This document shows, piece after piece, positions 40,191 to 44,667 of a stretch of DNA of 44,667 nucleotides. Under the pieces are notes generated by a model. That model saw nothing but the letters and a program-made list of their open reading frames with translations, was not told the DNA's origin and did not search any database. Made by a program: the position numbers and the translations under genes. Source of the DNA: Bacillus sp. AFS055030 (GTDB lineage: Bacteria > Bacillota > Bacilli > Bacillales > Bacillaceae_G); assembly GCF_002574545.1 (NCBI RefSeq), contig NZ_NUGT01000084.1:1-44667 (forward strand). Reading direction: 5' to 3'. Every line of letters begins with the position of its first letter. The stretch's first letter is position 1.

Positions 40191-40262
40191 GAATTTTTTT
40201 AAACTCTATGAAATGCACCAATTGTTGACAACCTTAATAACATAGAAATTGAGGTGGAATTC

Positions 40263-41348
40263 ATGAAAAAAAAACCAATAACTTTAAGTCTTTGTATGAT
40301 TGTTAAAAACGAAGAAGCTGTACTTTCCAGATGTTTATCATCTGTATCTAATATAGTAGACGAAATTGTCATTATTGATACTGGTTCAACAGATAAAACG
40401 AAGGAAATTGCTAAAAAATTTACAAATTCAATATATGATTTTACTTGGATCAATGATTTCTCAGCTGCAAGAAATTTTGCATTTTCTAAGGCAACGAAGG
40501 ATTATATTATGTGGCTAGATGCGGATGATATTATCACTGATGAAAATGCGAAGAAGTTACTTAAATTAAAAAAGTCATTAACTAAAAATGTCGACGCTGT
40601 CAAAATGAAATATCATCTAGCGTTCGATGAAAATGGTAATCCTAGCTTTAGTTCAGTAAGGAGTCGAATCGTTAAGCGCGAAAGAAACTTTAAATGGATT
40701 GGTTTCGTTCATGAATATTTAGAGGTCTACGGCGAGATTATCCAATCAGATGCCGCAATTATTCATCAAAAAGACAAAGAATATTCAGATCGAAATTTAA
40801 AAATTTATGAAAACGCAATTTCTTCCGGAAAAGAATTAAGTCCTCGCGACAAATACTATTATGCAAATGAATGCGTTGATCATCAGTTATTCGAAAAGGC
40901 AATTAAATGGTATGAATTGTTTCTTGATGAAGGCAAAGGCTGGTATGAGGATAATATTCAAGCCTGTGGAAAATTGGCAGACTGCTATTTAAATACAAAC
41001 GAATTAGAAAAAGCTATTAGCAGTTGTCTACGCTCATTTTCTTATGATGGACCACGAGGAGAAAACTGCTGTCGATTAGGATTTATTTATCTTCAACAAG
41101 GAGATTACACACGAGCAATTTCATGGTATAAACTTGCTACGCTAGTTGAAGTACCTAAAAATAGCCCTTTTATAAATATGGCTTGTTACACTTGGTTACC
41201 TAATCTACAGCTATGTCTTTGTTATAGTCGATTAGGAGATCAATTAACTGCTAGAAAATATAATGATGTGGCAGCAAGTTTTGTTCCGAATAATCCTTCT
41301 GTTCTACACAACCAAGCGTATTTCCGCTCATATTTTAAAGAACAATAA
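40263..41348 (+). CDS. Family 2 glycosyltransferase with TPR-like C-terminal half
   Basis: A 361-aa cytoplasmic sugar transferase. The N-terminal GT-A domain (1-155) starts LSLCMIVKNEEAVLSRCLSS and has IDTGSTDKT, NDFSAARN and the metal-binding DxD in WLDADD (84-89), then KWIGFVHE (144-151), typical of SunS-like and related protein glycosyltransferases. From about residue 185 repeated helices (LFEKAIKWYELFL, ELEKAISSCLRSF, DYTRAISWYKLA) form TPR-like units likely to hold the acceptor. The ATG at 40263 is chosen with GAGG 8 nt upstream. All active-site motifs are intact. The likely acceptor is the nearby collagen-like protein. Confidence 0.85.
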   Translation: MKKKPITLSLCMIVKNEEAVLSRCLSSVSNIVDEIVIIDTGSTDKTKEIAKKFTNSIYDFTWINDFSAARNFAFSKATKDYIMWLDADDIITDENAKKLLKLKKSLTKNVDAVKMKYHLAFDENGNPSFSSVRSRIVKRERNFKWIGFVHEYLEVYGEIIQSDAAIIHQKDKEYSDRNLKIYENAISSGKELSPRDKYYYANECVDHQLFEKAIKWYELFLDEGKGWYEDNIQACGKLADCYLNTNELEKAISSCLRSFSYDGPRGENCCRLGFIYLQQGDYTRAISWYKLATLVEVPKNSPFINMACYTWLPNLQLCLCYSRLGDQLTARKYNDVAASFVPNNPSVLHNQAYFRSYFKEQ

Positions 41349-41484
41349 ATCATCCTCTAATCATTATTTCTTAAACTCTACTGTTTAAAAGTCACAATAA
41401 GTGAATTGGATACTACTTATTTAGTAAATCAACATAAATAGATCATCAATCATTTAATACAAAATAATAAGAAAGGGTGATAGC

Positions 41485-42525
41485 TTGATCACAGTCAGTT
41501 TATGCATGGTTGTACAAAATAATGAAGCCACAATTGAAAGATGCCTTCGTTCAGTTAGTAGCATAGTTGATGAAATTATCATCGTTGATATGAATTCCCA
41601 CGATCGAACGATTGAGCTAGCAAGACAGTTTACAGACAATATACATGCCTTTGATGGTGTGGATGAACTAGAAGCATTAAATGTTTCAAAATCTTTGGCA
41701 ACAAAAGACTTTATACTTTTACTAAACCATAGTGAAGTTTTACTAGATCATGATCGTTTAAATTTTTCTAAGCTAAAACAGTCATTAAACAATGAAGTTT
41801 ATAATGTAGATTTTGATTATCAAATCGGTTGGAATGTAGAAAGCAAGCAAAAAACTAGTAGATTATTTAAAAGATTAAGTTCAAATAGTAGTTCTCCAAA
41901 TACAGAATCATTTTCTACTAATCTCCTTATTACTGATCTTCCTTTTACACAAAATGCAAAAGAAAATATTCAAATTTATGAACAAATGTTAAGTAATCAC
42001 ATTAATCTTTCTACGATGGATTTATTTTATTATGCAAAAGAGTTAAGTACAAATCGTCAACATGAACAATCAATAAAGTATTTTTTAAAATTTTTGAGAT
42101 TAAATCAGCCATTTGAAGAACTTAATATCCTTGCTTGTCATTATATTGCTAATTGTTATCACGAGTTTAATCTAAAAGACTTAGAAACTACTTGGTTATT
42201 AAAATCGCTTAAATATGGCAATACTCATCCAGAAACATGTTGTAGATTGGCTTATACATTTTTTGAAAAAAATAATTTTGATTCAGCCATTTATTGGTAT
42301 AAAGAAGCAACATTAAATAAGGTTAACGATCGTTTAATTCATCACAACCCATCATGTACCACTTGGCTGCCACATTTACAACTGGCAGTTTGCTATGACA
42401 GAATAGGTGAATTACGCCTTGCAAATGAGCATAATGAATTTGCCTATCAATTTTATCCAACACACCCAAGTATTCTTTCAAATAGAGAGTACTTTTCAAA
42501 TAGATTAAATAACGAAGGCAGCTGA
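41485..42525 (+). CDS. Degenerate glycosyltransferase paralogue (pseudo-enzyme)
   Basis: A 346-aa paralogue of the preceding gene: VSLCMVVQNNEATIERCLRSVSSIVDEI and the TPR-like half (SIKYFLKFLRL, FDSAIYWYKEATL, TTWLPHLQLAVCYDRIGE) align well. The catalytic positions are changed: DTGSTD became DMNSHD, the NDFSAARN helix is lost, WLDADD became LLLNHSE (residues 78-84), and the W-x-G-x-x-HE block is replaced by a Ser/Asn-rich stretch. The frame is open throughout, so it is probably a functional non-catalytic protein. TTG start with AAAGGGTGA just upstream. The two genes are 136 nt apart, same strand. Confidence 0.8.
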   Translation: MITVSLCMVVQNNEATIERCLRSVSSIVDEIIIVDMNSHDRTIELARQFTDNIHAFDGVDELEALNVSKSLATKDFILLLNHSEVLLDHDRLNFSKLKQSLNNEVYNVDFDYQIGWNVESKQKTSRLFKRLSSNSSSPNTESFSTNLLITDLPFTQNAKENIQIYEQMLSNHINLSTMDLFYYAKELSTNRQHEQSIKYFLKFLRLNQPFEELNILACHYIANCYHEFNLKDLETTWLLKSLKYGNTHPETCCRLAYTFFEKNNFDSAIYWYKEATLNKVNDRLIHHNPSCTTWLPHLQLAVCYDRIGELRLANEHNEFAYQFYPTHPSILSNREYFSNRLNNEGS

Positions 42526-42547
42526 GGATCTCTCAACTGCCTTTTCA
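42515..42547. terminator. Terminator overlapping the stop codon
   Basis: AAGGCAG-C-TGAG (42515-42526) pairs with CTCA-A-CTGCCTT (42532-42543), followed by TTCATC. The stop TGA of the upstream gene (42523-42525) is inside the stem. It also lies after the convergent glycosyltransferase-methyltransferase gene. Confidence 0.75.
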
Positions 42548-44154: not shown

Positions 44155-44667
44155 TTAAGAAATACGGTGAACTGACCAAGTGATACCAGCTGTATTGTTT
44201 CCACCTAAAGTAAGCTGAACCGTCAATCCGTCTGCTTCATAGAAGAGACCGATCACATCTCCGGCAGTTAATTCTAAATCTCCAGTAATCGTGACAGCTC
44301 CATCTCCTAGAATTGCTCTTAAGTTCAGTACTGCAAGTATATTTACATCTAAAATTGGTACTAAACCACTTATTAAGTCAGCAGTAGTAGGAGCAGTTCT
44401 ACGTATTACAAAAGAAGGATTTATTCCTGCTCCAATATCAGCTGTTAATGTTGCAGATGTTGAATAGTTAATTGTTGCTTCAAAAGTATATCTTCCTGTA
44501 GCAGGTACTGTAAAATTACCAAGTGTTGGATCAAAAGCCGGTGAACTGAAATGTGGACTAGCAACACTCCAGTTAGTTAATTGAGCTGTAGCAGCAGTAT
44601 TCACACTTGGAATGAATGCTGAGAATCCAGTTGAAGTTACACTTGGGCCTGTTGCTCCGTCTGCTCC
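44155..44667 (-). CDS. Collagen-like, BclA-type exosporium glycoprotein (3' part only)
   Basis: The C-terminal 170 residues of a larger gene, cut by the window edge; the frame stays open to base 44667. It enters as GADGATGPS, the end of a Gly-X-X collagen-like repeat. The rest is a beta-rich domain of about 140 residues (NFTVPATGRYTFEATINYSTSATL ... GDLELTAGDVIGLFYEAD ... GITWSVHRIS) typical of the trimeric C1q/TNF-like head of BclA and related spore-surface proteins. Such repeats carry Thr-linked sugars in Bacillus cereus relatives. The codon that looks like a start at 44604 is an internal GTG (Val). Neighbouring transferases may glycosylate it. Confidence 0.85.
   Translation of the reverse strand, partial: GADGATGPSVTSTGFSAFIPSVNTAATAQLTNWSVASPHFSSPAFDPTLGNFTVPATGRYTFEATINYSTSATLTADIGAGINPSFVIRRTAPTTADLISGLVPILDVNILAVLNLRAILGDGAVTITGDLELTAGDVIGLFYEADGLTVQLTLGGNNTAGITWSVHRIS

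Follow-up and report, generated by a model that had tools for sequence, protein, structure and literature searches.

A maintained, catalytically degenerate homologue of SgtA-type glycosyltransferases at a collagen-like protein locus of Gottfriedia

The stretch of DNA analysed here (the window) is the 44,667-nucleotide contig NZ_NUGT01000084.1 of Bacillus sp. AFS055030, on which two adjacent genes of the forward strand code for related proteins with a glycosyltransferase (GT) part. Gene 1 (40263..41348, +; 361 residues, ATG start) encodes an intact SgtA-type enzyme, in which a GT2 domain of the GT-A class is followed by tetratricopeptide repeats (TPR), and gene 2 (41485..42525, +; 346 residues, TTG start) encodes a catalytically degenerate homologue, of which the frame is open and evolves under purifying selection. 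Next to them are P0003 (42548..43924, -), a fusion of GT2 and methyltransferase that adjoins gene 2, and likewise its intact orthologues, in a conserved arrangement, and the C-terminal part of a collagen-like protein (44155..44667, -), of which the gene is cut by the contig end and the remaining piece has no Pfam match. The complete order argS, gene 1, gene 2, P0003, and collagen-like genes was found at two related loci, L044 (three collagen-like genes) and L049 (two), where the longer collagen-like gene carries Pfam Collagen repeats; a collagen-like gene in the vicinity, which is a feature of SgtA-type members, is present in the window and, in longer form, at these two loci. Because the named relatives nearest at the locus (L043-L049) are two Gottfriedia acidiceleris, one G. 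luciferensis, and four 'Bacillus sp.', the window was taken to belong to Gottfriedia.

The two proteins are collinear and share 36% identity over 349 columns (BLASTP, E 9e-72), in agreement with a first-pass annotation of the sequence, which had described them as homologous over the whole length. Both have the SgtA-type architecture, a GT2 N-terminus and a TPR C-terminus within about 360 residues. Pfam Glycos_transf_2 matched gene 1 with 87.9 bits and gene 2 with 31.4 bits, in the latter over residues 5-53 only, and Pfam TPR models matched the C-terminus of both proteins, with scores below the curated cut-offs for gene 2. The predicted structures gave a predicted local distance difference test (pLDDT) of 92.1 and a predicted template modelling score (pTM) of 0.82 for gene 1, and 86.7 and 0.54, respectively, for gene 2.

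The states of the catalytic motifs were scored by alignment columns, which replaced a regular-expression count that gave false losses. The genus set consisted of 13 genomes, 12 of which hold gene 1 and gene 2 side by side (12 species copies of each) and one, G004, neither; the outside set consisted of the 105 best non-genus matches to gene 1 (E up to 2.8e-84) in 397 sampled genomes of the order. DTGSTD, SAARN, WLDADD, and FVHEY are all present in gene 1 of the window, the first, third, and fourth as the first-pass annotation had read, and the catalytic motifs (DxD, DTGSxD, ARN, xH(E)) are retained in gene 1 of all 12 species. In gene 2 of the window, DTGSTD is replaced by DMNSHD (residues 35-40; 41587..41604, +) and WLDADD by LLNHSE (residues 79-84; 41719..41736, +) with loss of the metal-binding DxD, ALN stands instead of ARN, and an alignment gap lies over the VHE block, the His-Glu block being gone at residues about 130 to 150. 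DxD, DTGS, the ARN arginine, and HE are absent from gene 2 in all 12 species copies, all of which have lost the equivalents of D86, D88, R70, T40, G41, and H150 of gene 1. Sequencing error or local mutation in the window was ruled out by this agreement, and an intact DxD, looked for in close orthologues, was found in none within the genus. The earlier statement that gene 2 had lost every motif was, however, slightly too strong, since the first D of DTGSTD remains in 11 of 12 copies and its S and last D in all 12; only the L003 copy is without even this first Asp (GMNSHD).

Among the outside homologues, DxD, DTGSxD, and the His were found in 105 of 105 and ARN in 104, though the HE pair is not universal in these intact relatives (81 of 105). 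No other degenerate copy was found outside the genus among these 105 best matches and, as far as the sequences tell, the pattern of catalytic loss is confined to Gottfriedia within this part of the order sample. Since the motifs are missing from gene 2 in every copy, it is classed as a degenerate relative and not as an active SgtA-type member, and its product has probably lost activity. That gene 2 instead keeps, or has gained, another catalytic activity, either metal-independent or with a different donor, is hardly likely: DxD, the ARN arginine, and the His are all lost, no single replacement motif has been fixed at the DxD position (NHS in nine copies, and NPS, KPS, and NPN in one each), and the L003 copy has lost the first Asp of DTGSTD in addition.

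Gene 2 is without internal stop in all 12 copies, and its TTG start is also kept in all 12 species. The ratio of nonsynonymous to synonymous substitution rates (dN/dS; omega), estimated by a one-ratio codon model, was 0.147 for whole gene 2 when nine close species were compared, and 0.111 over all 12. When gene 2 was divided into parts, omega in the nine species was 0.278 for the GT core (residues 1-105), 0.170 for the middle part (residues 106-160), and 0.093 for the TPR part, while the corresponding parts of gene 1 gave 0.037, 0.019, and 0.043 (whole, 0.038), and P0003 gave 0.083. The pseudo-GT part of gene 2 (residues 1-160; 41485..41964, +) is the most relaxed, but omega = 1 was still rejected there, as it was for every segment, with twice the log-likelihood difference (2dlnL) ranging from 25.6 for the GT core in nine species up to 755.9 for the whole gene in all 12; these are values for the best of seven kappas, and fixing kappa at 2 shifts those of gene 2 by at most about 7. 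Gene 2 is thus under purifying selection and is not decaying. Both the dN/dS by part, nowhere near 1, and the lack of frameshifts in the orthologues bear out the initial proposal of a pseudo-glycosyltransferase that is retained; judged by its residues, the gene is dead yet maintained. A slowly decaying, functionless copy would accord with the GT core omega, seven-fold that of gene 1 in the nine species, and with a middle part that is hard to align. The open frame and TTG start in all copies, the rejection of omega = 1 in each segment, and the omega of 0.068 in the C-terminal half of the TPR part speak against it, and truly broken members of the family (G146:C17:40211-41286 and G193:C4:490037-491090, each split over two open frames) look different. 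Decay is largely refuted by these results, and we give it very little probability.

The best kept part of gene 2 is the C-terminal TPR segment (residues 248-346; 42226..42522, +). Omega in the nine species was 0.123 for the proximal half of the TPR part, as compared with the 0.068 given above for the C-terminal half. Family-conserved sites, defined as those conserved at 90% or more in the 105 outside homologues, are kept in gene 2 to an average of 0.86 in the C-terminal half (14 sites), 0.59 in the GT core (39 sites), 0.49 in the proximal TPR half (16 sites), and 0.23 in the middle part (18 sites). The first-pass view of a well kept TPR half therefore stands for the C-terminal half (86%) but fails for the proximal half (49%). 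A homologous TPR segment was detected on six enzymes of other catalytic classes, GT-D-like at L112, L113, and L114, and GT4 at L125, L129, and L147, the GT4 enzymes of L125 and L129 carrying an FkbM methyltransferase domain as well. The match covers the C-terminal half only in L112-L114, mainly that half in L147, and more in L125 and L129, and a collagen-like open reading frame (ORF; at least 12 consecutive Gly-X-Y plus a composition filter) lies at five of the six loci, with none at L147. The three genes that join a GT-D-like domain (PF22882) to this TPR (L112:8266-9462, L113:8203-9399, and L114:8268-9446) adjoin SgtA-type genes and collagen-like ORFs. The C-termini at L112 and L113 also match, below cut-off and as a lead only, Pfam TPR_P4H (the peptide-binding domain of collagen prolyl hydroxylase).

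The first-pass annotation had taken the two genes for an active/inactive pair of paralogues; a simple duplicate pair was not supported. In a FastTree phylogeny of 129 proteins, gene 2 joined seven intact enzymes of other genera in a group of 19 with support 1.0, on the full length and also on the TPR part only, and gene 1 fell with L081-L086, with low inner support on the full length and 0.929 on the TPR part. A tree of 36 taxa gave ultrafast bootstrap (UFBoot) values of 100 for the split of gene 1 plus L081-L086 and 95 for gene 2 plus the seven enzymes. Tandem duplication, with gene 1 and gene 2 as sisters, was rejected on these 36 taxa by the approximately unbiased (AU) test (p = 1.3e-4; log-likelihood difference 101), and so was a gene 2 nested in the gene 1 group (p-AU 0.001). 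The gene order is of the same kind: in six of the seven intact sisters of gene 2 the stretch fetched includes a complete P0003-type gene, as against two of 98 other loci (Fisher 1.2e-7), and in five of the six that gene is convergent with the GT gene as in the window; in one example, L122, the collagen-like gene lies on the opposite side of the GT gene. These absences are soft, because the contig of the seventh sister (L103) ends 1.6 kb beyond the enzyme, and further loci are truncated as well. From the tree and the gene order together, gene 2 seems to be the original enzyme of the locus, now dead, and gene 1 belongs to another lineage. Gene 2 is on this evidence the orthologue of intact enzymes that in other genera stand beside the same GT2-methyltransferase gene, and its catalysis was probably lost within Gottfriedia, beside a second intact enzyme.

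At L087 (4684-7899, -), a 1072-residue ORF joins a P0003-type GT2 (residues 5-258; partial, inside the fusion) to an SgtA-type GT2-TPR unit (253-612), carries a further GT-like domain and a methyltransferase, and adjoins a collagen-like ORF of 245 triplets; such a fusion points to a shared substrate for P0003-type and SgtA-type proteins. At another locus (L106:7302-8375, -), a second, distant GT2-TPR gene with intact motifs adjoins an intact enzyme of the gene 2 lineage on the same strand; the lineages of this pair differ as in the window, but both of its members are intact.

A collagen-like ORF was found at 66 of 105 family loci; for the 80 loci with 13 kb of sequence the figure was 48. None was found in 35 random 13-kb stretches from the same set of genomes. 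G004 is the only one of the 13 genus genomes without gene 1, gene 2, and P0003, and it gave no match to Pfam Collagen at 1e-5, whereas the other 12 hold 4-53 matched stretches each. Both neighbourhood and co-absence thus support the association with collagen-like proteins proposed at first pass, as does the activity of SgtA described in the available part of its report (PMC7157674). Within the limited literature collection searched, nothing was found on Gottfriedia with collagen-like proteins, and the papers on pseudo-glycosyltransferases did not, by title or abstract, concern this system. The family itself is widespread: the gene 1 protein (P0001) matches at 1e-20 in 161 of the 397 order genomes, although GT2 proteins of more distant kinds are counted in this figure. 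The viral contigs L221-L231 and L280 also encode relatives of the query alignment (33-53% identity), that of L230 having lost DTGS and kept DxD, and members of the family were found on nine plasmids (H2-H10) from Priestia megaterium and P. aryabhattai.

Upstream of gene 1, alignment of the 12 upstream regions revealed a block of 38 bases (40225..40262, +) that is nearly invariant in the 12 species, terminates in the ribosome site GAGGTGG, and holds CATAGAAAT. The latter has what we take to be a loose, weak resemblance to the -10 box of mother-cell sporulation sigma factors, and the block is possibly a sporulation promoter with its ribosome site. Gene 2 has a ribosome site of its own, AAAGGGTG (41472-41479, +), ahead of the TTG at 41485-41487. 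Apart from this site the spacer between the two genes is variable, and no separate conserved promoter for gene 2 was seen in its 87-204 bp across the 12 species. Sigma-70-like sites in the region were not above shuffles (20 found, 25.5 expected). A terminator-like stem-loop (42515..42543, strand not assigned) lies where gene 2 and P0003 converge, between their ends; two such stem-loops were found in the region, with 1.5 expected from shuffles.

Gene order, co-absence, and the function of the family lead us to regard gene 2 as a partner in collagen glycosylation, and on balance we lean, if only somewhat, toward a non-catalytic docking partner for the glycosylation of the collagen-like surface protein. 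Gene 1 would be an SgtA-type peptide O-linked N-acetylglucosamine (O-GlcNAc) transferase, the sugar being assumed by analogy with SgtA, and would start glycans on Thr within the Gly-X-Thr repeats of the collagen-like surface protein encoded next to it. The ancestor of gene 2 would have lost sugar-nucleotide and metal binding within Gottfriedia, with the GT-A fold staying as a scaffold, and the C-terminal TPR segment would most likely dock the collagen-like chain and/or P0003. Such docking, be it to collagen, gene 1, or P0003, may raise the efficiency, processivity, or order of glycosylation.

Several observations weigh against this proposal. Omega of gene 2 is above that of gene 1, so that its GT part is clearly relaxed, and N202, Y217, W227, D230, and R265 (gene 1 numbering) of the TPR part are lost in all 12 gene 2 copies, so that substrate binding by gene 2 may also have changed. 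Since the 12 copies share a common ancestor, the catalytic loss amounts to one or few events. Domain placement in the gene 2 model is uncertain at its pTM of 0.54, and the best whole-length matches superpose poorly (TM 0.39-0.42). In addition, 39 of the 105 family loci are without a collagen-like ORF in the fetched stretch, including 32 of the 80 with 13 kb, and the co-absence in G004 is one case, in a distant member with an argS protein 60% identical and surroundings that are not syntenic. SgtA, moreover, was active alone as a MalE fusion in the available part of its report, so that the family needs no partner (PMC7157674).

In a wider and more doubtful version, which we offer tentatively, the original GT of the collagen locus would have lost catalysis after an enzyme of a second lineage had come to stand beside it and could start the glycan. 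Its role today would be that of a docking subunit, through which the collagen-like chain is offered to gene 1 and to P0003, the methylating extender. The C-terminal TPR segment, found on GT2, GT-D-like, and GT4 enzymes alike, would then serve bacteria generally as a module for collagen docking, and gene 2 would be a bacterial parallel of the dead GT domain of human LH3 (see below). The locus would illustrate, in nature, how an enzyme turns into a binding partner. The system is a simple one, with an active and a dead copy, orthologues of the dead copy that have stayed intact in other genera, and a repetitive acceptor encoded close by. It also points to the C-terminal TPR segment as the part with which this widespread glycosylation family may recognise collagen.

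Among known systems the closest is SgtA of Clostridioides difficile, a metal-dependent enzyme (Mn over Mg) that attaches beta-O-GlcNAc to Thr in collagen-repeat peptides from BclA3, and that consists of 358 residues with a GT-A domain and a C-terminal TPR, its gene lying directly upstream of bclA3 (PMC7157674). The genes of the window have the same size and domain order, although transfer of GlcNAc is known for SgtA only, and the protein ends specified by the SgtA cloning primers, as translated by eye, look similar to those of gene 1 and gene 2, a likeness of primer ends and not of full sequences. Unlike the pair in the window, SgtA is a single intact gene, active alone; in the part of the report available, a dead partner is not mentioned and TPR is said to mediate protein-protein interactions in general only (PMC7157674).

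The glycocin S-glycosyltransferases SunS and ThuS, composed of GT2 and a TPR-like part, were the best whole-length Foldseek matches to both models. They differ from the present proteins with 13-20% identity, and gene 1 and gene 2 remain far under the cut-off of NCBIfam SunS (53.9 and 27.1 bits, respectively, against 350). Their entries (7msn, 7msk, 7msp) hold two chains each, and TPR surfaces often dimerise; both would suit a gene 2 that mainly stabilises or dimerises with gene 1 as a folding partner and leaves the acceptor untouched. We hold this to be rather unlikely, as elsewhere a single full-length family member is found per locus (100 of 100 loci) and the gene 2 lineage tracks P0003, not gene 1.

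Of the sequences with a solved structure, GmaR of Listeria scored best against both proteins (7.9e-31 and 1.1e-11). It likewise combines GT2 and TPR, and is a bifunctional transferase with a second, non-catalytic job as anti-repressor (PMC3150276), from which gene 2 might be thought a regulator acting on a transcription factor. GmaR is, however, described in the available text as a working transferase and binds MogR through an extra C-terminal anti-repressor domain (residues 351-637; PMC3150276), while gene 2 ends at residue 346 without such a domain after the TPR. Identity with the GmaR anti-repressor was rejected for this reason, and a GmaR-like regulator is improbable.

For the docking partner that we favour, counterparts are found in systems of other design. 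The accessory (AC) domain of human LH3 (collagen lysyl hydroxylase), a collagen-modifying enzyme, is a non-catalytic GT fold beside an active one and, according to the authors in the part of the paper available, is possibly involved in collagen recognition (PMC6082870). It differs from gene 2 in being a domain within one protein and in the acceptor, hydroxylysine (PMC6082870). Gtf1/Gtf2 (GtfA/GtfB) of the serine-rich repeat adhesins form a two-protein complex that starts protein O-GlcNAcylation (PMC5207161). Their acceptor differs from a collagen-like protein, and for gene 1 and gene 2 the partnership is one that we infer. The fold class of Gtf1/Gtf2 presumably differs as well from that of gene 1 and gene 2. 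As far as these two sources were available, partner or accessory non-catalytic GT parts are already known elsewhere, within one polypeptide in the LH3 AC domain (PMC6082870) and in a two-protein arrangement in Gtf1/Gtf2 (PMC5207161).
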